Shown: one piece after another, positions 39-21,547 of the stretch | How positions within the stretch are numbered: the first letter of the stretch is position 1 | Layout: every line of letters begins with the position of its first letter | Origin: a virus | DNA: 39,348 nt | Reading direction: 5' to 3' (one strand) | Virus record (IMG/VR): IMGVR_UViG_3300002143_000005 | Span: 1 to 39,348 of that record | The notes under the pieces: generated by a model | The model's input: the letters and a program-made list of their open reading frames with translations, nothing else | Database searches by the model: none | Told to the model about the DNA's origin: nothing | Made by a program: the position numbers and the translations under genes

Positions 39-845
39 TTAAAAGAAGTCCTCCAAGGAGTTACCCCCACTCTTAAATGCTTCAGACCATGATATAATCG
101 CTTCCCATCTAAACTTATCACCTTTACCAGTAACCCATGAAGGATCTTCCTTCTTTACCAGTTTAACATAACCAGGGAACTCTGATGCGAGTGCTTCCAA
201 ACATTTTCTTTGTAAATCGGTTGTTCGGAACACCGAGTTGCCGCCAGGCTTACCATGAGGATGATTAAAAGCATATTTGAAAATAACGGCATTCTTTACT
301 CCCTTTGTAAGTAGTGCGAGAGTCGCATAGAAATCTTCATACAACTTAATTTCTTTATTCTTTTGATACATTCCGTCAAAGCGTACACCATGTTGTCGCA
401 TAGTGACGGGATTGATACCATAACAAGAGTACGAACGTGCCACTTCTTTAAAGTCCTCTGGAACTCGATTGTTCCCACCTCGGTCGCTGATACCTACCCA
501 AGGATAATCATCCAACATTGTCTCAACCATGTTGAGCATTTCTTTCCAACCTTCTTCTGTGATTTCAGATAACTTCAGGTCAGAATCACGTTGCATGAAT
601 ACGCAACTGTCGTCTACAATAAGAACCTTTTCATCCTTAGCGTAGTCTACAACACGTTGGCGCACATCTGCGATACCATCAGTTTCACCGATATCAATAA
701 TACATGCTGATGGATTATATTTAGTTAATTCTGCGACTCGATCAGAACGTGCCGCAAGTACAGTCATGTTCTTAACGAACTGCGGCATGTTGTTGTAACA
801 CTTCTGGTTCTGCTCACGCATGTGAGTGGGGATAATTATGATCAT
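39..845 (-). CDS. TET-associated-type glycosyltransferase (GT-A-like), probable DNA base glycosyltransferase
   Basis: 268 aa. It opens with a beta-strand/loop (IIIIPTHMRE) typical of GT-A nucleotide-sugar transferases. An Asp pair follows a hydrophobic strand at residues 73-79 (VLIVDD), in the place of the DxD metal/nucleotide-sugar motif. A conserved-looking middle part (IADVRQRVVDYA, about 58-69) precedes it. The start codon overlaps the stop of the TET-like gene (TAATG), so the two are translationally coupled. That pairing with an oxygenase and a C5-methyltransferase is the reason for assigning it to the phage TET-associated glycosyltransferases, which transfer a sugar to 5-hydroxymethylcytosine in DNA. 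The protein ends NSLEDFF, like the TET protein beside it and close to the polymerase tail, so a sliding-clamp-binding tail is inferred. Family assignment is by pattern and context; donor and acceptor are not known. Confidence 0.65.
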   Translation of the reverse strand: MIIIIPTHMREQNQKCYNNMPQFVKNMTVLAARSDRVAELTKYNPSACIIDIGETDGIADVRQRVVDYAKDEKVLIVDDSCVFMQRDSDLKLSEITEEGWKEMLNMVETMLDDYPWVGISDRGGNNRVPEDFKEVARSYSCYGINPVTMRQHGVRFDGMYQKNKEIKLYEDFYATLALLTKGVKNAVIFKYAFNHPHGKPGGNSVFRTTDLQRKCLEALASEFPGYVKLVKKEDPSWVTGKGDKFRWEAIISWSEAFKSGGNSLEDFF

Positions 846-2182
846 TAGAAAAAGTCCTCAAGTGATGACGCAACTGCATTCGCTTCTGGATGATACTTAT
901 TAAGCATGTCAGATCCACCCTTTTCGGTACAGAAGTCATACCATTCACGGGATGTCCACATTCCAGGAGACACACCATTCCAACCAGCACGCCAGTCGGC
1001 ATGTTCTTTGTTCAATCTACGAGACTCGACAAAGTCTTTACGAGTGTTCTCATATTCCCACGAACCTAACTCCATCATGTTCTCACGGAAATAACATACC
1101 AATGTGCAACGGTCAGATTCCTCGATGGGTGATGTGATCGCAGAGTTGCCGTGGATACCTTCGTGGTTGTTTACCAAGAGCAGATCTCCTGGACGAACAT
1201 TAACTGCGACACGATACTCTGGGAATGTCAAGTATGCACCAGTCCATCCTTTACCATCAGGACCAGTCAGAGCGGCGAGGTTTGAGAACCCCTCAGACAG
1301 ATCACCAGCATCACGGTGTGCCGCAGTACGAAAGTTCTTATTGACTGTGATCGTAGTGAATACGCTGTCAGGAACTAGAAAACGAGGATCTAACTTATCT
1401 GCAGCACGTTTCTGTGCAGCATACTTTCCAGGAACCAAATCGCGGAAGTATCCATTCAATCGCTTCAGGTAAGGAAATGCCAGTTCCCACTTGATATTCG
1501 CCGCAGAGTAAGATGTTACGCGACCATACGGAAACCGAGGATAGCGATCATAGAAACCCGCAACTCCAGAGTTGACTGCGGCAGCATAAGAAGTGTCTGA
1601 AATAAATTTTTCATAAATTTCCTTTGTACGTTCCAACTGAACTTCTTTAGATAGAGTACACATTTGAGTGACCCACTGATCGAACCAGTTACCATATTCC
1701 AGACCAGCTTCTTCAACTGCGCCACGACGCCACACTACACCACGAGTCTCGTCTTTAACTTGACCTGCTGCATGTGTAGCACGGATATGTTCAATGTGCT
1801 GAGAGTCACTAGTGTCGTCTTCGTATAGAGTAGAAGTTTTATCAGTCATAAAATGACGCAGGATATCGAACTCTATTGCCTTAACGAAGTCGCGAGCACC
1901 AGTAGTTTCACCACGAGGACCAGCAGCAAGACCACGATTAGTCTGAGGTTGAGCTGCATCTACCAGACCAAGATATGCTTCAACATACTCTTTCTCAGTA
2001 AATGCATTCTTACGAAATTTGAATATCAACCGACTTTCATCATACGGATCTTCCCCATATGGGGTTGGGGCATAGAAGTCACAGTCTTCACTAATAACCT
2101 CATCATAGTGAGATTCATCAATGAACGTACCAATAACATGTTCAGCATCAAACTTAGCCTGAGCAACTATTACTTTAACCAT
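845..2182 (-). CDS. TET/JBP-family 2-oxoglutarate/Fe(II) dioxygenase (5-methylcytosine oxidase)
   Basis: 445 aa. The C-terminal half carries the double-stranded beta-helix signature: H289-R-D291 (AAHRDAGD) as the HxD iron ligands, a distal His in NNHEGIHGN (H344 likely, H340 possible) and a following Arg (DRCTLVCYFR, R358 or R366) suited to 2-oxoglutarate binding. The HRDxGD spacing and the wider context resemble TET/JBP base oxygenases, which oxidise 5-methylpyrimidines in DNA. The N-terminal 200 residues include a Gly/Arg-rich loop (TNRGLAAGPRG, 81-91) that I cannot assign. It lies in one operon with a C5-cytosine methyltransferase upstream and a glycosyltransferase-like gene downstream (overlapping start). 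The last residues are SSLEDFF, shared with the glycosyltransferase-like protein. Expected reaction: 5mC to 5hmC in phage DNA. Confidence is good for a 2OG oxygenase, lower for exact substrate. Confidence 0.8.
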   Translation of the reverse strand: MVKVIVAQAKFDAEHVIGTFIDESHYDEVISEDCDFYAPTPYGEDPYDESRLIFKFRKNAFTEKEYVEAYLGLVDAAQPQTNRGLAAGPRGETTGARDFVKAIEFDILRHFMTDKTSTLYEDDTSDSQHIEHIRATHAAGQVKDETRGVVWRRGAVEEAGLEYGNWFDQWVTQMCTLSKEVQLERTKEIYEKFISDTSYAAAVNSGVAGFYDRYPRFPYGRVTSYSAANIKWELAFPYLKRLNGYFRDLVPGKYAAQKRAADKLDPRFLVPDSVFTTITVNKNFRTAAHRDAGDLSEGFSNLAALTGPDGKGWTGAYLTFPEYRVAVNVRPGDLLLVNNHEGIHGNSAITSPIEESDRCTLVCYFRENMMELGSWEYENTRKDFVESRRLNKEHADWRAGWNGVSPGMWTSREWYDFCTEKGGSDMLNKYHPEANAVASSLEDFF

Positions 2183-2381
2183 TATTACTTTCCAAATCTA
2201 ATACAATGTCTGTTCCGTCAATGTGACAACCGATCACCCTTCGTTTACCATTATCATCCATTATAACACAAGTATTGATTTCTGGATATGTTTTATTTAT
2301 CGATCCTGTATCTTGAGATGCTATCATAGTTTCACGCCATGCATCAAGCAACTTATGTGAAAGGTTATATGCATCCATCAT
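2175..2381 (-). CDS. Small hypothetical protein in the modification operon
   Basis: 68 aa, starting with two Met codons. It overlaps the TET-like gene by eight bases downstream, and its start overlaps the stop of the mazG-like gene (TAATG), so it sits in a fully coupled string. The second half is beta-rich (TCVIMDDNGKRRVIGCHIDG). No signal peptide, membrane segment or known motif is seen. Function unknown; the coupling suggests it is expressed in step with the modification enzymes. Confidence 0.7.
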   Translation of the reverse strand: MMDAYNLSHKLLDAWRETMIASQDTGSINKTYPEINTCVIMDDNGKRRVIGCHIDGTDIVLDLESNNG

Positions 2382-2800
2382 TATAGGTCGCCGTCTTTAC
2401 GATTTTCTGATTTATAAACATCGAACGTGCCACCTGGATATCTAGATTCTAACTTACGAACATTCTCTGCAATAACCTCATTAGGGTCTAGGTTCAATGC
2501 ACGACAAGCATTAATCCAATACCAAATAATATCACCAAGTTCACGTTTCATGTGAAATACATTCTCATCATTGAAATGCTTCCCCTGAAATAGTATCTTT
2601 TTAATAATTTCATTAAACTCACCGCCTTCACTAGCAATACCTATACCAGAAGTCATTAATAGGGAAAAGTTATATCCATCATTATTATTAGATAAATCAC
2701 TTAGTCTCCTGTGAAAGTAATCAATATTATTACTCTCATTAGATGTAACTGCATCTACGAATTTGGTATATTCGTTTAAATCAACTTGTTTTTTTGTCAT
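2381..2800 (-). CDS. mazG: MazG-like nucleotide pyrophosphohydrolase
   Basis: 139 aa. It shows the helical MazG metal-binding pattern ExxE...ExxD: E58-G-G-E61 and E87-L-G-D90 (RELGDIIWYW), followed by the C-terminal NVRKLESRYPGGTF element common in phage MazG proteins. The family hydrolyses (d)NTPs or alarmones to monophosphates. Many T4-like marine phages carry one, proposed to tune host nucleotide or (p)ppGpp pools. Here it lies between the methyltransferases and the TET-like gene, which would also fit removal of unwanted nucleotides. It is coupled to the genes on both sides. Confidence 0.85.
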   Translation of the reverse strand: MTKKQVDLNEYTKFVDAVTSNESNNIDYFHRRLSDLSNNNDGYNFSLLMTSGIGIASEGGEFNEIIKKILFQGKHFNDENVFHMKRELGDIIWYWINACRALNLDPNEVIAENVRKLESRYPGGTFDVYKSENRKDGDL

Positions 2801-2962: not shown

Positions 2963-3658
2963 TTATTTTATTGCTATTGCGCCTACAAACATATAGTTTC
3001 TCCAGAACGGTTGAATTTCTGTAAATCCAGCAATGTTTAACATAGATATTATCTCTTTCCATGTATTAGGTTTCATCATATTTCGTAAAGTTTTTTCTTT
3101 ATCCATGATATCTTCCGTCGTGAAGGTCTTCCTTTTATAATCATAATAATTGAATGTAAGCATATCTTGAAACTTAGCATTTTCACAAAGTGTTTTTTCT
3201 GAAAATATATACGCACCGCCATCATTTAAACCATCGTAGATTTTATTAATAACGTCTTGTCTATGACGTTTAGACATAAATTGTAATGTAAAAATAGAAG
3301 TCACTAGGGACGCATTAGTAATTTCTACATCACGAATATCCTTTGTAATAAACTCTACGTTGGCCCAAGGATATGCTTTAGATATATCATTCTTTCTGTT
3401 TATTAAGTTATCAAAAAAACCTTCTGCGATTTCAACCCCAATGTAATTAGCATCCTGACAAAATGCTTGATTTGAATCAAGCATACGTTCAGTGAGTTTT
3501 CCTGTAGAACATCCTATATCAAATATATTGGTGCCGTCTTCAACGTAATAACGTGATAGATCGATCACATCATCTAATAAGTTACTATAACCACGAATAC
3601 TAGTTTCAATGTGTTCATCAAAACCTTCTTCCCTATGTGCGAATGTAAAATCAGCCAT
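2963..3658 (-). CDS. CmoA-like SAM-dependent methyltransferase (carboxy-SAM synthase family)
   Basis: 231 aa from the ATG at 3658, chosen because GGAG lies seven bases upstream; an ATG at 3676 is in frame but has no such site. Rossmann-fold motif I is IFDIGCSTGK. Compared by eye with E. coli CmoA (from memory), full-length similarity is clear: DFTF at the N terminus, IRGYSNL (CmoA VPGYSNI), FTLQFMSKRHRQ (FTLQFLEPSERQ), KIYDGLNDGGAYIFSEK (KIYQGLNPGGALVLSEK), YDYKR and AGF near the end. CmoA makes carboxy-S-adenosylmethionine from SAM and prephenate. Caution: the diagnostic CmoA Arg199 (QKRS) aligns here with Glu, flanked by Lys (DKEKT), so carboxy-SAM synthesis is not assured. It overlaps the C5-methyltransferase gene by eight bases, so the two are coupled. 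Alternatively it could be an ordinary small-molecule or tRNA methyltransferase. Confidence 0.75.
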   Translation of the reverse strand: MADFTFAHREEGFDEHIETSIRGYSNLLDDVIDLSRYYVEDGTNIFDIGCSTGKLTERMLDSNQAFCQDANYIGVEIAEGFFDNLINRKNDISKAYPWANVEFITKDIRDVEITNASLVTSIFTLQFMSKRHRQDVINKIYDGLNDGGAYIFSEKTLCENAKFQDMLTFNYYDYKRKTFTTEDIMDKEKTLRNMMKPNTWKEIISMLNIAGFTEIQPFWRNYMFVGAIAIK

Positions 3659-4850
3659 TATATATCTCCAATACATGTTTATAAACAGAATCTGCCACCG
3701 ACTTCATAAGTAACGGTGGCACCATTCTTCCAATACGTTCTGCTTTTTGATTCCACTTTCCAGTAAGTTTAAAATCATCGGGCAAAGACATAATCCTTTT
3801 CAATTCACCAAGTGTAAGTTTTCTAGGTTCAATCCAATGAAAAGCACCAGCAGTACCATCGCCACTACCCATAGCAGTAATTGTTGGTGCTGGGGCATAC
3901 TGCGATACTCTTTTTAAATTAAAGTGATGACCTTTAGGATGGTAGTCCATACCAGTTAAAACTTTCGGTGGATCAATTTCCATCTTACTACCAGTCTGTT
4001 TCCAGTATGCAGTCTCCAAGAATTTATCTGTTAGGTATTTCACTTCATCAGTGTCATATTGTAAATCAACCATTGCTTCTTTTACAGTAACAATATCAGA
4101 CATTGGTACTGGAAATATACTTTGAAGATTCATAAAGTTTATTCCAACTTTATCAGCAACATCTTCTCGAACCCCAATGAATATAACCCTCTGCCTAGTT
4201 TGGGCAATTCCATAGTAACGACTATCTAGTACTTGGGCAGATACATGATAACCGATTTTTTCAAATGTGTTAAGAATCTTATTGAAATATGACTTGGCCT
4301 CACCTATAGTTAGTCCTTTAACATTTTCTGCAATTATAACTTTAGGTTTGATATCATCAGCGACTCTTAAAAATTCGAAGAATAAGTCTTCAATATTTTC
4401 CACTATCATACCGTCAGAATAATTTTTAGTCTTACCCCAACCATCTGAATGTTTACCACTGACTTTTTGAACAGTAACATCACCGTACAAATCAACGAAC
4501 TTTTCTTCATGTATATTATGAGAAAGTTTCCCTGAAACCGAAAATGCAGAGCATGGTGGGGAACCATCTAGAATATCTAATTCACCAACAGCAAGACCAG
4601 TTATGTCTAAGAAGTCTTTTCCGGTTAATTGTTTAATATCTCCAGGGAATATATATGTCTCTGGGTAATTTTCAGCATAAGTCTTCTGGGCTTCTTCAAC
4701 AAATTCATTGACGCATAATACTTTAGCACCAGCAAGCCTATATCCTGTTGAAGACCCACCTCCTCCAGCAAAAGTGGAGATAACTTTAAATTTATTTTGC
4801 AAAGATGCAGTATGAACATCTTTTAAATTATATGGAGTGTATTTCATCAT
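3651..4850 (-). CDS. DNA cytosine-C5 methyltransferase with Arg in motif X
   Basis: 399 aa with C5-MTase motifs in canonical order: I (STFAGGGGSSTGYRLAGA, 25-42), IV with catalytic Cys100 (DGSPPCSAFSVSG), VI (AENVKGL, 174-180), VIII (QTRQRVIFIGVR, 217-228), a target-recognition region ending in APTITAMG (320-327), IX (RKLTLGELKRIMSLP) and X (ERIGRMVPPLLMKSVADS, 371-388). In motif X the usual Asn of IGNAVPP is Arg375, a residue near the cofactor methyl end. The enzyme should methylate (or carboxymethylate, see findings) cytosine at C5 in phage DNA, giving the TET-like enzyme its substrate. First gene after the promoter at 4874-4902. Met1 and Met2 are adjacent; the AGGA spacing favours Met2 at 4847. 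Confidence 0.93.
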   Translation of the reverse strand: MMKYTPYNLKDVHTASLQNKFKVISTFAGGGGSSTGYRLAGAKVLCVNEFVEEAQKTYAENYPETYIFPGDIKQLTGKDFLDITGLAVGELDILDGSPPCSAFSVSGKLSHNIHEEKFVDLYGDVTVQKVSGKHSDGWGKTKNYSDGMIVENIEDLFFEFLRVADDIKPKVIIAENVKGLTIGEAKSYFNKILNTFEKIGYHVSAQVLDSRYYGIAQTRQRVIFIGVREDVADKVGINFMNLQSIFPVPMSDIVTVKEAMVDLQYDTDEVKYLTDKFLETAYWKQTGSKMEIDPPKVLTGMDYHPKGHHFNLKRVSQYAPAPTITAMGSGDGTAGAFHWIEPRKLTLGELKRIMSLPDDFKLTGKWNQKAERIGRMVPPLLMKSVADSVYKHVLEIYNG

Positions 4851-4873
4851 AATCCTATATCTAATACAAGTAT

Positions 4874-4902
4874 ATTATAACACAAACTAGCAGATTTTGC
4901 AA
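4874..4902 (-). promoter_or_regulatory. Sigma70-type promoter of the DNA-modification operon
   Basis: Minus strand: -35 TTGCAA (4902-4897), 17-nt spacer, -10 TATAAT (4879-4874) preceded by TGT, an extended -10. Expected start about 4867, roughly 17 bases before the methyltransferase ATG. It is the same module found before gp43, gp44, gp45 and gp55, so the modification genes belong to the early/replication regulon. Confidence 0.8.
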
Positions 4903-4917
4903 GGGCTTTTGTATCAT

Positions 4918-7458
4918 TTAAGTAAAAAACTGTTCAAGGGTATTCCTATCTTCCAATGTCCACCCAATAGCATCTAAAATAAGAGTTAATGGGTCGGTAA
5001 AAGATTTCTCGAATTGTTTATCATAATCAATATATGTTTTCAATCCGAGTTCTTCTGGGAACTTTTCTGGAAAAGATAATATGTTTTCTTTAATAGGATT
5101 AGGTACTCGTAGATAACAGAATTTTATACGTTCACCATCTTTAATTAATTCCAAGTTTTTGTCTAACCCTTTGTCTTTAACATAATGATTATATAACAAA
5201 GACCCCCTAACATGAATTGGGGTAGATTTCTTATATATGGTTTTGCGATCAGTCCAAGATGTAATATCACTTACCCCACGAGGGAAAGATACTTGTTCCG
5301 GTTCAAGTTTGCGGAATTCATTCTTAAAGTTAGTTACAAACTCACGTACATCATTGTTATCACCATTGATCAATATTTTAAATAATTCCATAAATTTATT
5401 TCGACATACTTCTGGTGTAGATGATTTAACTGCTTCTATACCCATAACTTTAGTTTGGGCCTCTTTGTACTGTACACCTTCATTATTCCATACATTTAAG
5501 ATGTAACGTTTTTTAGCAACCCAAATTGCTTTATCAGAGATACCCTCACGTTTCATTACCATGCGGTTTTCATATCCACCCATTTTTTCGTATAGTTTAG
5601 CATAAGCATCATCCAGGATGGATGTAAATTTATCATCACATACTTTATCCAAGAATCTAACTGTCTTTTGGGTTTCAGGTTTACTACCCAAGAACTTTTC
5701 AACAAATGGACCAAAGTTTAAATACAATGAGTCAGTGTCCATTGCAATAACATAATCAACATCTTTTGTGTTCATCGACTTATTCATAAAGTCATTGACT
5801 GCACGTTCTGCCCAACGAATAGTTAATTGACCAGATAACGTGATAGATTCTGCAATCCTGTTATCATAATATCTAAACCATTGGTTGCCCATCGCACCAT
5901 AAAGTGAGTTCAATAAAATCTTAATTGCCATTTGTTTAACATTACATTGAACAACTTCCATCTCAAGTTTATATTTCTCAATCTTATTAGCAGGATCTAT
6001 ATTTTCTTTATCCTGTTTTGCACGTAACATTTGTGTCTTAATGACCACACGTTCATTATAAAAAGAATCGATGATGTTAGGTAACGAACCCTGAAACGAT
6101 GTGTTAAAATGTATACCTGCCGCAGACATAGCAGAGTTTGGTATATTGTTAGGTGTATTAGTATCAGCAAGACAACTATCTACATTAACCCCATTAGTAA
6201 CACCATTTATAATAGTATCTGGGCCCATATTCAATTGAATGATCAAGGAAGGGTATAGTGCGTTCAAGTCAAAGGATACAACCCAATCATATTTTCCAGG
6301 AATAGGTTCCTTGACGTAAGCGCCTGGGTATTCTAGTTTAGGGGTATCTTTCTTGGGGGGTATTGCGATCTTCTGTTCTGATAATCTACGATAGATAATT
6401 GAATCCCATATTGCAGTCGTACCCAATGTATCAGAGTAGTTAACACCACCCTTATATGCAAGGGTATAAATCAAATTCATGAATGTAGTAGTAGCATCGA
6501 TACGATCAACCAACCATACATCTCGAATATTATAATCTAAAAATTTTTGGTAATTAGTTTTATACAATGTAAATAGATTACCATCGAATTGGAGTTTACG
6601 TTCCCCGAGTACAACCATGCTTATATGATCAAGACGATAAGTTTCCTGATTACCATAAGTCTGATATCCGAACTTGAGAAACAAGTCCATGTAATCCATT
6701 TGATTGATACCCATTAATTCATATGTTATATGAGTTTTACCCTTGAAGGTTTCTTCCCTAGGCTTAACCATCTTCCACGGTGATAATTTCTTAACCCATT
6801 CTTCACCCAACATAATATTAATACGATTAACCAGATAAGGAATATCAAACCCTCTTGTATTCCATCCAGTAACTACGTCAGGGGTTAAATGAGGGGTTGA
6901 CCAATGTTGAACAAATAGTTTTAAGAGACTAGTTTCATCAATGCATTTTGTGTACTTAACTGAACTATCACATAGTTCATCTTTCATCTCAGATTTATCT
7001 ATGCTCCAATCACCAAGACCCCAAACATAATATGTATTACGAATACTATCTTTTATTGTGATAGCAGTTACTGGATGTTTTGCTTGATCGGGTTCTGGGA
7101 AACCATCGTCGGACTCAACCTCAATATCAAGGTTTGCGACACTGATTAAAGATGGATCAAAATTTATCTCACGGCCAGGAAACCTGTCATGAATAAATTG
7201 TGCAATATAGTTTGTATTGCCGTAGATTTTAAAGTTCTCGACTTCACCATACTGCCCTATGAATTCTCTTGCACCTTTCATATCCTCAAATTGCATTGGG
7301 GATACTTTAGTACCATCCATAGTATTCCAATCGCCTTTATTGTTAGGAACATAAAGTGTTGGTTGAAATGGAACACGTTGACTTACTCGCCTACCGTCTT
7401 GATAACCTCGATATAAAATCGAATTGCCATAGCGGTTTACTGATGTATAAAATTCCAA
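4918..7458 (-). CDS. 43: DNA polymerase, family B (gp43)
   Basis: 846 aa (T4 about 898). Exonuclease motifs: ExoI NLDIEVESDD, ExoII TGWNTRGFDIPYL, ExoIII YNIRDVWLVDRID. Polymerase motifs: A SFDLNALYPSLI, B KQMAIKILLNSLYGAMGN, C AMDTDSLYLNFG. All catalytic Asp/Glu are present, so both proofreading and synthesis should be active. The tail NTLEQFFT is the clamp-binding peptide position of T4-type polymerases. The start appears to be TTG at 7458, giving MEFYTSV as expected for the family; GGAG lies nine bases upstream, and the only nearby in-frame ATG (7473) is followed after one codon by a stop. Its promoter is at 7485-7513. Confidence 0.97.
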   Translation of the reverse strand: MEFYTSVNRYGNSILYRGYQDGRRVSQRVPFQPTLYVPNNKGDWNTMDGTKVSPMQFEDMKGAREFIGQYGEVENFKIYGNTNYIAQFIHDRFPGREINFDPSLISVANLDIEVESDDGFPEPDQAKHPVTAITIKDSIRNTYYVWGLGDWSIDKSEMKDELCDSSVKYTKCIDETSLLKLFVQHWSTPHLTPDVVTGWNTRGFDIPYLVNRINIMLGEEWVKKLSPWKMVKPREETFKGKTHITYELMGINQMDYMDLFLKFGYQTYGNQETYRLDHISMVVLGERKLQFDGNLFTLYKTNYQKFLDYNIRDVWLVDRIDATTTFMNLIYTLAYKGGVNYSDTLGTTAIWDSIIYRRLSEQKIAIPPKKDTPKLEYPGAYVKEPIPGKYDWVVSFDLNALYPSLIIQLNMGPDTIINGVTNGVNVDSCLADTNTPNNIPNSAMSAAGIHFNTSFQGSLPNIIDSFYNERVVIKTQMLRAKQDKENIDPANKIEKYKLEMEVVQCNVKQMAIKILLNSLYGAMGNQWFRYYDNRIAESITLSGQLTIRWAERAVNDFMNKSMNTKDVDYVIAMDTDSLYLNFGPFVEKFLGSKPETQKTVRFLDKVCDDKFTSILDDAYAKLYEKMGGYENRMVMKREGISDKAIWVAKKRYILNVWNNEGVQYKEAQTKVMGIEAVKSSTPEVCRNKFMELFKILINGDNNDVREFVTNFKNEFRKLEPEQVSFPRGVSDITSWTDRKTIYKKSTPIHVRGSLLYNHYVKDKGLDKNLELIKDGERIKFCYLRVPNPIKENILSFPEKFPEELGLKTYIDYDKQFEKSFTDPLTLILDAIGWTLEDRNTLEQFFT

Positions 7459-14744: not shown

Positions 14745-16928
14745 TTAAACAACAATTTGGACAAGTCGGTCAAGCAATACTCTACTAGATAACCTACCCT
14801 TAGTAAACTTGACAAATTCTCTCGTTAGCGTCGCTTTAGAGGCATCCTCGTCTACTTCAAAGTCATCCTCTTGTATTTTTAGGTTATTAATATTTAAAAC
14901 AATATAGCGATCGTACCCGAAGATATTATCAGTAACATATCCACCATTTTTACGACATTCAGTTTGGGCCTTTTTAAATGCGTAATGATCATTATTAGTG
15001 GTATTATATAAAGTTCTACGCAAGATACCGGCATCACCTAAAAAGTATCCCAAATTAATTGTCCCACACTCTTCACGGATGTGATTCAACAATACTTCAG
15101 ATAAGTGACGAGATGTATTATTTAATCTTATAACTTTGTTATTACTAATTTGTAACATATTACCATTATATGCATAATCATGTTTAAAATTCGTAACCTT
15201 ACCCGCCTCGCCATCAGTTAACAATACATTAATAATTTTCTGGACTCCACTGTCTTTCTTAAATTTCTTAATTAAATATTTAAATGCTATTAAAGCCTCA
15301 TTAGTTGGAGTAGAATTTAAATTATCAAACTTGTTAGCGATTCCACATCCAAACATATACGTAGATTTAACTGCATTTTCAAAATTGCGTTTACTCATTT
15401 TTGTAGTAAAGAATTGGATTAACTTTAAACCGACTGGAACGATAGTCCCCTCAGGCCATATTTCAGCACGTGGCCATACTGGTTCAAGTGGATTTTTTAC
15501 ATATCCATCAGTGTAGCCATACATTTCAAATGGGATAGCAACTCTACGGCAGAATAATGCGAGGTTCAAAGCTTGTCTAATTGTATCAAATATAACCTTT
15601 CCACCCATTGATCCAGACATATCAATGCCAATAAACATACCATGAGATTTAGCATCAGCCAAAGTAGTGATACGTTTAAATATATCTTCACTAAATTTAT
15701 ATTTATGTAATGCGGAAGTATTTAAAACTCCAGAGTTACTAACCTTTGCACGAGTATACTGGTATGCAGCTTTCTTTTGTTCAAATTGTTTTGCAAGGTA
15801 TCCAACAATTTTATTAGTATCATACGTAAATTTTTTATAACTCTCAAGACAATATTCTTTATATTTATTAATATCAACATCACGTGGATAACCATGAGTA
15901 TATCCAGGGCATTGGTAACTGCAATACTCATCACGAGGGGCATCATGATAAACTTTATAATCTACGACACAATGTTCCAACTCAGATTCAGGGAAGAATT
16001 TTAAAATTGAACCCTTTTCATTGCTAACCATTTTAAGTTCATTTGAACGAAATGCCATATCTGTCTCAGAATCTTCAGTTTCTATTGGATCGGTATACTC
16101 AAAATCTCCAACTGGCGAATCTATAAAAGGATTTTTTAGCCTTTGGGATTCCACATTAGATTCAATATGATCAGGTATATTGTCTCCATAATCTAATTTC
16201 CCATCGGTGTTTTCTGCATAGCTTTCGGTAACTTTACCAGACTCTTCTTCTTCATCATCAGAATCACCATAATAATCGGATGAATTAGCGTTTTCTTTAA
16301 TAGCATCATCTTGTATTTTTTTAAATAAATTTTCTAATGCTTCTTGGAAATCATCTTTATTTTCATCAGTGAATTTTTTGATCTGTTCACAAACTTCAAT
16401 AACTTCTTCAAAAGTTTCACATTCGCCTACCATATTAACGAATTTAATTTCTTCAGGTAAGAATGGGACAGTTATACAATGACCGAGTTTGAAGTGAATG
16501 TTAATACGATCAATTAATTTAAAAGTATCTAAACCCCTGCCATTAATTTTAAAGAAATCGTTATCGTTCATCCATTGATATGCACGACTGAATGTATAAA
16601 CTATTCCAGGATATTTCCGTTTAGTATTTTTTTCGATACGAGCATCTTCTACTACGTTAATGTATGAACGTGGAATTTCTAACTCAATAACAGAATCATG
16701 CCATCCAGTAGCAGGAGTGAATAACGCATGACCAATTTCATGGGCAACAAGCATGTCATAAACATATAACGGCACGTCCCAAAGTGGTAGATTGAGTACT
16801 CTAGTATCAATATTAAAATATGCCGTACTTGAATTTGTTTGATTGACTTGAATATTCTCTTGAGCCAAGAGTCTTGCAACGGCAGACTTTACCCCTAAAT
16901 TTATATGATTATTTTGCGTTTGTGACAT
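14745..16928 (-). CDS. Large HEXXH/VWA-domain protein ('CobT'-like), partner of the MoxR ATPase
   Basis: 727 aa. N-terminal metallopeptidase-like site HEIGH (63-67) inside YDMLVAHEIGHALFTP, with VVEDARIEK (92-100) downstream where E94 could be the third zinc ligand. A long acidic linker (about 215-290, DSDDEEEESG) follows, then a Cys-containing segment (CSYQCPGYTHGYP, 336-348) and a C-terminal von Willebrand A domain with MIDAS DMSGS (436-440). Phage homologues are annotated CobT or VWA/peptidase. With the adjacent ATPase this resembles MoxR-VWA chaperone pairs. Whether the zinc site is catalytic is untested. A hairpin (14738-14753) overlaps the stop codon. Confidence 0.82.
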   Translation of the reverse strand: MSQTQNNHINLGVKSAVARLLAQENIQVNQTNSSTAYFNIDTRVLNLPLWDVPLYVYDMLVAHEIGHALFTPATGWHDSVIELEIPRSYINVVEDARIEKNTKRKYPGIVYTFSRAYQWMNDNDFFKINGRGLDTFKLIDRINIHFKLGHCITVPFLPEEIKFVNMVGECETFEEVIEVCEQIKKFTDENKDDFQEALENLFKKIQDDAIKENANSSDYYGDSDDEEEESGKVTESYAENTDGKLDYGDNIPDHIESNVESQRLKNPFIDSPVGDFEYTDPIETEDSETDMAFRSNELKMVSNEKGSILKFFPESELEHCVVDYKVYHDAPRDEYCSYQCPGYTHGYPRDVDINKYKEYCLESYKKFTYDTNKIVGYLAKQFEQKKAAYQYTRAKVSNSGVLNTSALHKYKFSEDIFKRITTLADAKSHGMFIGIDMSGSMGGKVIFDTIRQALNLALFCRRVAIPFEMYGYTDGYVKNPLEPVWPRAEIWPEGTIVPVGLKLIQFFTTKMSKRNFENAVKSTYMFGCGIANKFDNLNSTPTNEALIAFKYLIKKFKKDSGVQKIINVLLTDGEAGKVTNFKHDYAYNGNMLQISNNKVIRLNNTSRHLSEVLLNHIREECGTINLGYFLGDAGILRRTLYNTTNNDHYAFKKAQTECRKNGGYVTDNIFGYDRYIVLNINNLKIQEDDFEVDEDASKATLTREFVKFTKGRLSSRVLLDRLVQIVV

Positions 16929-16957
16929 TAGTATTAAATTTTTTACTGATACGACCT

Positions 16958-20021: not shown

Positions 20022-20744
20022 CTATAAGATTCTATGTTCATCTAAAATATTTCTTTCTGGTTTCCACCCAAGACTACTCAGTTCAGATATATCTGCACTA
20101 GTCTTTACACGTTCATTTGGAGTTGGATCGTATTTAACATCACCGTTCCAACCCATCGCATTTGCAACTTCTAAAACAGAAACCGATATACCAGTTCCTA
20201 TGTCTACAACTTTACCAACCATTATACCATAATTATCTATTAATGTAAATATGGCTGAGCATAAATCATCAATGTGTGTGAAATCTCTATAATGGGCCCC
20301 ATTAATATATTTAACATCACCACGCAAAATTGATTGATATAACATATCATCTCTTCCAGGAAATACAGTATGGGGTCTAACTCCTAAAGAATTTTTAATT
20401 CTATCAATCTCATTAATAAGTTTAGTTTCAGCATATGGATTATTAACTTCTTTAGCATTTGATGAAGATGCGAATATTAGTGGAATATCTAATATATCAC
20501 AAACTAGGAAAACTTCTCTAGTTCCCAATACATTAACTTTAAAATATTCATCTGGCATTTCAATAGATTTCCTAACTCCAGTAAGTGCCGCCAAATGTAT
20601 AACCATATCAGGGATATCTTCTTCTGAAATATCAAAATTTAAAATATTTCCAATGTAAGGTATTACTGTATACCCTCTATTAGAAAGATATATAGAAAGA
20701 TGGGAACCAATATACCCATCATACCCTGTCATTAATATTTTCAT
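20022..20744 (-). CDS. NAD-dependent sugar-nucleotide epimerase/dehydratase (extended SDR)
   Basis: 240 aa. N-terminal NAD site GYDGYIG (G7xxG10xxG13), HLAALTGVRKS, catalytic Ser in FASSSN (92-96) and Y104-x-x-x-K108 (NPYAETK). C-terminal parts read HYRDFTHIDDLCSAI and WNGDVKYDPTPNERVKTSADIS. The family interconverts or decarboxylates UDP-sugars; the length is short (usual 300-340). Start overlaps the stop of the dehydrogenase gene (ATGA), so the two likely act in sequence, for example on UDP-glucuronate. Exact product unknown. Confidence 0.85.
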   Translation of the reverse strand: MKILMTGYDGYIGSHLSIYLSNRGYTVIPYIGNILNFDISEEDIPDMVIHLAALTGVRKSIEMPDEYFKVNVLGTREVFLVCDILDIPLIFASSSNAKEVNNPYAETKLINEIDRIKNSLGVRPHTVFPGRDDMLYQSILRGDVKYINGAHYRDFTHIDDLCSAIFTLIDNYGIMVGKVVDIGTGISVSVLEVANAMGWNGDVKYDPTPNERVKTSADISELSSLGWKPERNILDEHRIL

Positions 20745-21547
20745 TTTAATTTATGTCTTTCATTCAATTCAATTGCGGTTTCTAATAACAATAGTGGGGT
20801 ATCGGCACTTCTAGCTAATGTTGTTAATTCAGCATTATCTTTTGGAAAACAAGCACCACTCCAACCATATTTACCATCATTACCAGGAACCATCATATGA
20901 CTTATACCCATACGAGAGTCTAACCCAACTAGTTTAATAAATTTATTAAAATCATCACCAATACCCAATTCATCATATAATTCTTTTATCTCATTGAAGT
21001 ATGTAACTTTAGTCGAAAGGAAACTATTTATCGTATACTTTATCAAACCAGCCTCTTCCATTGTATCAGTATAATAAAATTTAACCAAATAATTCTTAAA
21101 ACAATTGCTCAGTATATATGACCATGTAGCAGAAGCATCATTTCTAGGAGACATAATTATATAATTAGAATTTTTTAAATCAGATATAGCATTTTTTGCA
21201 GTTAAAAATTCAGGGGAGAACACAAGATGATTGTCTTTGATATTACCAAGTAATCGTAATGTATCTAATGAAGTTGTTGATTTAATAAGTATTGGTATTG
21301 TTTTGTTTAATTCACGAATCCTATAGTATTCATTTACAACTAGAGAGTCATCACATTTACCTGATGGTGTTGTTGGTGTAGGTACGCAAATAATTACGCC
21401 ATCTAAATGTTCATTAGAAATAACTGAATCAGGTACAATCATACTCTTTGGTGGATCTTGTACTAATATCTGATAAGTGTTTTTAAGTAATGATGCATAA
21501 GCAGTACCTACAAATCCAAACCCAATTATTACAATTTGGTTTAACAT
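20741..21547 (-). CDS. UDP-glucose/GDP-mannose dehydrogenase-like protein, C-terminally short
   Basis: 268 aa. Rossmann site IIGFGFVGTAYA (8-19), CVPTPTTPSGKCDDS, KSTTSLDT and SPEFLTAKNA follow the UDP-glucose 6-dehydrogenase pattern. Catalytic Cys233 lies in SGACFPKDN. The protein stops soon after the central domain and lacks the C-terminal UDP-binding domain present in the usual proteins of about 390-450 residues. The gene ends cleanly in an ATGA overlap with the epimerase, so the short form looks native rather than broken. Expected chemistry: oxidation of UDP-hexose to UDP-hexuronate. Confidence 0.85.
   Translation of the reverse strand: MLNQIVIIGFGFVGTAYASLLKNTYQILVQDPPKSMIVPDSVISNEHLDGVIICVPTPTTPSGKCDDSLVVNEYYRIRELNKTIPILIKSTTSLDTLRLLGNIKDNHLVFSPEFLTAKNAISDLKNSNYIIMSPRNDASATWSYILSNCFKNYLVKFYYTDTMEEAGLIKYTINSFLSTKVTYFNEIKELYDELGIGDDFNKFIKLVGLDSRMGISHMMVPGNDGKYGWSGACFPKDNAELTTLARSADTPLLLLETAIELNERHKLK

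Follow-up and report, generated by a model that had tools for sequence, protein, structure and literature searches.

The question raised by this locus is whether a phage can encode a natural machinery for the carboxymethylation of its own DNA. The window, i.e., the whole stretch of 39,348 nucleotides analysed here (IMG/VR virus record IMGVR_UViG_3300002143_000005), contains two overlapping genes for a cytosine C5-methyltransferase (C5-MT) of the CmoX type and for a homologue of CmoA, the synthase of carboxy-S-adenosylmethionine (Cx-SAM). The best explanation, to which we assign a probability of about 0.9 on the basis of sequence comparison, is that they represent a CmoA-CmoX system making 5-carboxymethylcytosine (5cxmC) in phage DNA. 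With this pair, a system described only recently gains one more example; the system itself is not new. Its features are the following, with SpCmoX and SpCmoA denoting the proteins of Synechococcus phage S-B43:

3651 to 4850, minus strand: CmoX, DNA cytosine C5-carboxymethyltransferase by homology (PF00145), 399 amino acids
2963 to 3676, minus strand: CmoA, Cx-SAM synthase by homology, 237 amino acids (231 amino acids from Met7, start 3658)
3651 to 3658, minus strand: 8-bp overlap between the end of cmoX and the start of cmoA, with the CmoA start at Met7
3726 to 3728, minus strand: codon of CmoX Arg375 in motif X, equivalent to Arg350 of SpCmoX and Asn304 of M.HhaI
4551 to 4553, minus strand: codon of CmoX Cys100, the catalytic nucleophile in SPPC, aligned to Cys98 of SpCmoX
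3095 to 3097, minus strand: codon of CmoA Glu194 at the position of E. coli Arg199 (phmmer alignment to 4GEK)

The window CmoX matches PF00145 with an E-value of 1.4e-55 and SpCmoX (8YF3) with 5.9e-144, and its catalytic cysteine lies in an SPPC motif at residues 97-100. The sequence of motif X is IGRMVPP, and the DNA codon identifies residue 375 as Arg; phmmer pairs this residue with its Arg counterpart in SpCmoX (8YF3) and with the Asn in FGNSV of M.HhaI, and its position was checked further in an alignment of 22 C5-MTs. The replacement of the motif X Asn by Arg, reported in an earlier note on this DNA, is therewith confirmed. The window CmoA is homologous to E. coli CmoA (4GEK) over its full length (residues 7-237, E = 6e-31) and matches phrog_4752 with 4.7e-64, which places the homology beyond chance by these scores; in many database records CmoA is labelled as a tRNA methyltransferase. 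Counted from Met7 (MADFTFAH...), CmoA comprises 231 residues, matching the lengths of its equivalents in S-B43, Synechococcus phage S-CRM01 and viral contig L006, the last of which has the identical overlap arrangement with the same CmoA start. From the first ATG (3676) the overlap would amount to 26 bp. The earlier description of the next gene as a full-length CmoA relative with an 8-bp overlap thus holds when CmoA is counted from Met7; the expression "fused by overlap" is correct as to the overlap, but the two genes are separate and no fusion is present.

A homologous pair has been characterised in S-B43, and the idea of natural carboxymethylation put forward for the window has accordingly been published already (Yang et al., Nat Commun, 7 Dec 2025, PMC12783734). 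That paper reports that CmoA and CmoX of S-B43 make 5cxmC at GC, with biochemical, structural and native-DNA evidence, and that the native DNA holds a glycine adduct, glycine being ligated by a third protein, CmoY. SpCmoA synthesises Cx-SAM with a kcat of 2.33 s-1 compared to 0.23 for E. coli CmoA. Arg350 of SpCmoX binds the cofactor carboxylate in the 1.9 Å structure 8YF3; the wild type accepts Cx-SAM as its only cofactor, and the R350N mutant uses neither S-adenosylmethionine (SAM) nor Cx-SAM. The same paper describes M.MpeI N374K, in which a basic residue in place of the conserved Asn likewise confers the use of Cx-SAM; this enzyme is engineered and CG-specific, whereas the window CmoX is a natural protein of the phage type.

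Compared with S-B43, CmoA of the window shows 60% and CmoX 58% identity. All cited CmoX contacts are conserved: F25, E47, F48, D69 and C98 of SpCmoX correspond to F27, E49, F50, D71 and C100 of the window, and Arg350 is matched by Arg375. The values for S-CRM01 are 59% and 58%, respectively. The gene order differs, being CmoA-CmoY-CmoX in S-B43, CmoA before CmoX in S-CRM01 and CmoX-CmoA in the window. These similarities support natural DNA carboxymethylation, and the window pair very probably carboxymethylates cytosines of the phage DNA. CmoA would convert SAM and prephenate into Cx-SAM, whose carboxylate would be held by Arg375 of CmoX, while Cys100 would attack C6 of the cytosine and the carboxymethyl group would be transferred to C5. 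By analogy with S-B43, the pair would be active, specific for GC and refractory to plain SAM. The resulting 5cxmC, probably located at GC sites, probably shields the phage DNA from restriction. Its carboxymethyl group may be left as is or may be capped by an enzyme encoded beyond the known 50 kb of the genome.

Several observations weigh against this picture. The window CmoX carries about 17 more residues after the catalytic loop than its S-B43 counterpart, so the GC specificity may not carry over. CmoA is found without a C5-MT on the 7.2-kb contig L109 (one of 123 CmoA loci), and the pairing is therefore not absolute. A CmoY-type ligase (PF00733) was matched neither in the window record nor in the overlapping 49-kb contig L004, the genome being incomplete. 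Finally, the window virus, L006 and L007 each encode a TET-type dioxygenase and a TAGT glycosyltransferase along with CmoX and CmoA, which counts against the view that the dioxygenase and the glycosyltransferase form a separate module. The variable stretch of CmoX (residues ~109-130) differs in length among relatives, is missing in S-B43, L006 and L079, and might affect sequence specificity.

The conservation of the pair was investigated in 125 viral-contig loci (L004-L128; L004, L009 and L089 are one contig). They were selected by similarity to the window proteins and thus document conservation and pairing rather than an unbiased rate. Motif X was readable in 115 of them, and all 115 have both the Arg and a CmoA gene. 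The ten unreadable loci comprise L005 and L008, which show TET only, seven that are cut shortly before or inside CmoA, and L109. Arg375 is invariant in all 109 aligned rows (340-459 residues each), as are F27, E49, F50, D71 and C100; judged from this alignment and the 115 readable loci, the Arg is not a product of chance. What is directly established for the window is the presence of the two genes, their homology, the retention of the contact residues and the constant association of the pair.

The deviating locus L109 deserves a separate description. Its region 3545-5237 contains CmoA, flanked on either side by a copy of the 5' portion of uvsX and preceded by a D12 methyltransferase; this arrangement reflects either an insertion or an artefact of assembly. 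We rejected a D12 adenine methyltransferase as alternative partner of CmoA, because none of 30 other loci with this D12 gene show CmoA, and the flanking duplication of the uvsX start further undercuts such a pairing. Alcaligenes phage Afa-NA1 (L149/L259; 78-kb genome) harbors a CmoA homologue and two D12-class adenine methyltransferases without a C5-MT.

A panel of 16 phage records, chosen for a hit to CmoA (seven records), to a methyltransferase (eight) or to TET (one), allowed a comparison of different motif X types. PF00145 is present in 14 records; Afa-NA1 and MT835562 lack it and both have a CmoA match. The five Arg-type records (PaBG, Erwinia Y3, Yersinia fHe-Yen9-02, TurkishDelight and Moraxella Mcat8) all match CmoA, the match in Mcat8 being weak (2.2e-7, 21%), and so do both Gly-type records, compared to none of the seven records with Asn, Leu or Met. 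This small and partly selected panel lends no support to the concern that IGR might be common where cmoA is missing. Within it, the proposed co-occurrence survey shows the Arg type paired in five of five records, but the association is not exclusive given the two Gly-type records with CmoA. The C5-MT of Melnitz-3 (L140) has Leu (IGLMV) and that of Flavobacterium phage Fpv5 (L156/L174) has Met (IGMSV) at the position of the motif X Asn; both genomes are devoid of CmoA. The Arg-type CmoX of Erwinia phage Y3 (L162 1501-3630) and Yersinia phage fHe-Yen9-02 (L177) contains an intein-like insert right after SPPC, which in Y3 matches the Pfam intein and Hint models below their cut-offs.

A doubt that the earlier note had raised itself concerned Arg199 of E. 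coli CmoA, a residue that we presume to be functional. The alignment is correct, since phmmer places Arg199 opposite Glu194 of the window (QKRS versus DKEK). CmoA of S-B43 and S-CRM01 has the same Glu, in S-B43 also within DKEK, and Glu occupies this position in all 119 readable loci among the 123 with CmoA. The active SpCmoA has Glu as well, so this exchange is no argument against Cx-SAM synthesis; the comparison with S-B43 indicates that Arg199 of the E. coli protein is dispensable in the phage branch.

The two Gly-type records point to a candidate second type of carboxymethyltransferase. In the SPbeta-like phage (L147/L172) and in vB-SscS-F1 (L148/L173), both phages of Staphylococcus, CmoA is located beside the sole C5-MT, which exhibits Gly (VVGGVIN) in the Arg/Asn column and has GSPC where CmoX has SPPC. 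In vB-SscS-F1 a PF00733 gene, the homologue of CmoY, lies between CmoA and the methyltransferase. Seventeen viral-contig loci were retrieved with these two enzymes, five of them unreadable in the relevant column. Four loci (L261-L264; 62-65% identity) all combine Gly with CmoA, and L261 has a CmoY homologue in addition. The Perkons enzyme (49%) has Asn in a genome without CmoA, and eight loci at about 33% identity have Asn (GNGW) without CmoA on their contigs; His or Tyr initially assigned to these eight distant relatives was discarded as a misaligned column. Adjoining the Gly-type gene of L261, a second C5-MT (3098-3985) has Arg in motif X (ERAGRTV) and GFPC as motif IV. The 5,615 candidate CmoX proteins in the survey of Yang et al. 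were obtained with a filter for SPPC and R350 (PMC12783734). Lacking both the Arg and SPPC, the Gly-type enzymes would not pass this filter, suggesting that it misses part of the family.

The next question concerns the fate of the carboxymethyl group in the window virus. PF00733 was detected in S-B43 as the single one of 19 records searched; it was not found in the window, L004-L008, the whole genome of S-CRM01, which has the CmoA-CmoX pair as well, and the 200-kb contig of L059. Where 1.5 kb or more of upstream sequence was available (84 CmoX-CmoA loci), CmoY is present within the examined stretches of 54 loci and not seen in those of 30, some of which will be cut off. Loci with CmoX and CmoA lacking CmoY are common. 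A tentative explanation for the window virus, possible rather than probable, is a CmoY-type ligase whose gene lies beyond the known sequence and which caps the carboxymethyl group as in S-B43. Its plausibility derives from the 54 loci with CmoY, from L055 and L056, where CmoY is found at a separate place beyond CmoA, and from the fact that only about 50 kb of the genome are known; the empty searches of both overlapping records and of the complete S-CRM01 genome speak against it. An alternative partner replacing CmoY was sought as well, but no gene family near the pair consistently marks the 30 loci, the best being IMP dehydrogenase/GMP reductase with 5 of 30 versus 0 of 54 in loci with CmoY. 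The lineage of the window is hence well suited to ask what becomes of a carboxymethyl handle without a known ligase.

Less than 3 kb downstream of the pair, the window encodes both the dioxygenase and the glycosyltransferase mentioned above:

2381 to 2800, minus strand: MazG-type pyrophosphohydrolase between CmoA and TET (PF03819, E = 4.2e-9)
845 to 2182, minus strand: TET/JBP-type 2-oxoglutarate (2OG) dioxygenase (PF12851, E = 5.6e-19)
39 to 845, minus strand: TAGT glycosyltransferase next to TET (PF20691, E = 1.7e-7, 31.8 bits with a cut-off of 27.5)

The MazG-type gene is a common phage neighbour and stands outside the mechanism. A search with the single window TET sequence matched no solved structure, and the family profile matched TET2 weakly (E 0.0004). 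The AlphaFold model, built on 30 sequences (pLDDT 82), adopts the TET fold; in VIA-align it superimposes on TET2 with Z 19.1 and a root-mean-square deviation of 4.3 over 259 aligned residues, and on NgTET1 with Z 18.4. The putative metal triad H289, D291 and H344 (HxD...H) is invariant in the 30 rows. The same holds for Asp294 and Arg366, which align with the HRDLHN and YQH motifs of TET2 that we take to contact the base.

Whether TET and TAGT act on the product of CmoX can be approached via their distribution. TET homologues covering at least 92% of the query occur in the whole genomes of DLP6 (48% identity to the window), C48C1 (45%), Cr30 (42%) and S-CBWM1 (27%), and in none of these four were PF00145 or CmoA found; the same PF00145 search does detect S-B43, S-CRM01 and Melnitz-3. 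The Stenotrophomonas phage DLP6 encodes TAGT with 55% identity but differs from the window in lacking C5-MT and CmoA, which is the reason for regarding the window TET as not dependent on CmoX. Viral contigs contain more than 500 TET relatives. Of the best 80 that were kept, 75 are new (L184-L258; 49-53% identity); the examined stretches of these 75 loci contain neither C5-MT nor CmoA, and none of the 43 contigs searched over their whole length matches PF00145. With the four genomes added, Arg366 is conserved in seven of seven and Asp294 in five of seven TETs, a set that includes phages with CmoX and phages lacking it, and the aligned residues show no sign of an adaptation of TET to CmoX. A counter-case is Melnitz-3, whose Leu-type C5-MT directly precedes a partial TET match (27%, 122 residues). 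Partial TET matches are also present in HTVC112P and Nonlabens P12024L. Methylation at the nucleotide level as a supply for TET was rejected, PF00303 being found in one of 13 records (Cr30). The available parts of the literature on DLP6 and Cr30 hold nothing clear about DNA modification, and a limited literature search retrieved no publication that treats TET and CmoX jointly.

Given that full-length TET relatives occur without a C5-MT, TET and TAGT more likely constitute a second, separate module whose target base requires no C5-MT, and for them the earlier idea that the pair might provide an altered substrate finds no support. The large phage TET family without C5-MT points to thymine or another base as the one oxidised, and thymine is our best guess for the window. 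We see about even chances that the virus thus combines two independent hypermodifications, namely 5cxmC at GC and a base-J-like glycosylated hydroxymethyluracil derived from thymine.

The 2OG oxygenase ALKBH8 hydroxylates a 5-carboxymethyl-type uridine in tRNA. With this precedent in mind, TET could hydroxylate the CH2 group of 5cxmC and TAGT add a sugar, resulting in glycosylated 5-(carboxyhydroxymethyl)cytosine in place of the glycine ligation by CmoY. The clustering of the four genes in the window virus, L006 and L007 would fit, all the more as the Arg-type CmoX is the only C5-MT in the incomplete records of the window, L004, L006 and L007, in which PF00733 was not found. We nevertheless consider this improbable: full-length relatives of TET are found in the absence of C5-MT and CmoA, in DLP6 together with TAGT, the presumed base contacts are alike with and without CmoX, and pairs lacking CmoY also exist without TET in the whole S-CRM01 genome (window-type TET/TAGT not seen in the 31 kb read) and on the 200-kb contig of L059. 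If true, it would be a third way to elaborate the 5cxmC handle, beside amide ligation.

Phage TETs reportedly act on 5-methylcytosine made by a co-encoded methyltransferase, as Burke and colleagues are said to have described in 2021. A corresponding scheme, in which CmoX uses plain SAM to make 5-methylcytosine, TET converts it to 5-hydroxymethylcytosine for glycosylation and CmoA serves tRNA or another purpose, would agree with the tRNA methyltransferase label of CmoA and with the CmoA-free Melnitz phages, where a non-Arg C5-MT is immediately followed by a gene with a partial TET match, but is very unlikely in view of the CmoA gene at all 115 Arg-type loci and of SpCmoX, which uses only Cx-SAM and as R350N neither cofactor (PMC12783734).

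Contig L004 (IMGVR_UViG_3300002142_000006, 49,233 bp) overlaps the window with identical CmoX, CmoA, TET and TAGT and adds about 11 kb to the known genome. The window's DNA polymerase shares 78% identity with that of L005, 70% with those of L006 and L007, and at most 45% with those of the other loci showing most of the gene; its CmoX is 82% identical to that of L010 and 73% to that of L006. The TET of L005 is 92% identical, and in place of CmoX-CmoA this contig has a DruA-like gene (PF14236; 7835-8956, after the polymerase gene) and a further open reading frame between polymerase and mazG. No C5-MT was found in the incomplete records of L005 and L008. The pair thus seems to move between phage backbones. 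Two separate gains of CmoX by TET phages were considered but not upheld: a quick tree parts the window and L006, and joining them is not rejected (p-AU 0.205). The CmoA-CmoX system is hereby placed in a T4-like phage that also carries TET-TAGT and in which no CmoY was seen.

Further genes in the vicinity are worth recording. One feature of the window may be linked to the glycosyltransferase, as its products could possibly supply the sugar:

20022 to 21547, minus strand: NAD-dependent epimerase-family gene (PF01370, E = 3.1e-19) and UDP-sugar dehydrogenase-family gene (PF00984, E = 6.4e-18)

The extension provided by L004 encodes a nucleotidyltransferase-family protein (15093-16616) and shows weak HAD-phosphatase matches (16591-16956). 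Between CmoA and mazG, L006 (5642-9325) and likewise L007 contain host-like genes for a class II aldolase and a DAO-family oxidoreductase according to Pfam, together with DoxX- and IscA-like genes as judged by eye. In Erwinia phage Y3 (L151 4888-5526), a 2OG-Fe(II) oxygenase (PF13640) follows shortly after CmoA and a gene annotated as asparagine synthase, and it could act on the modified base.

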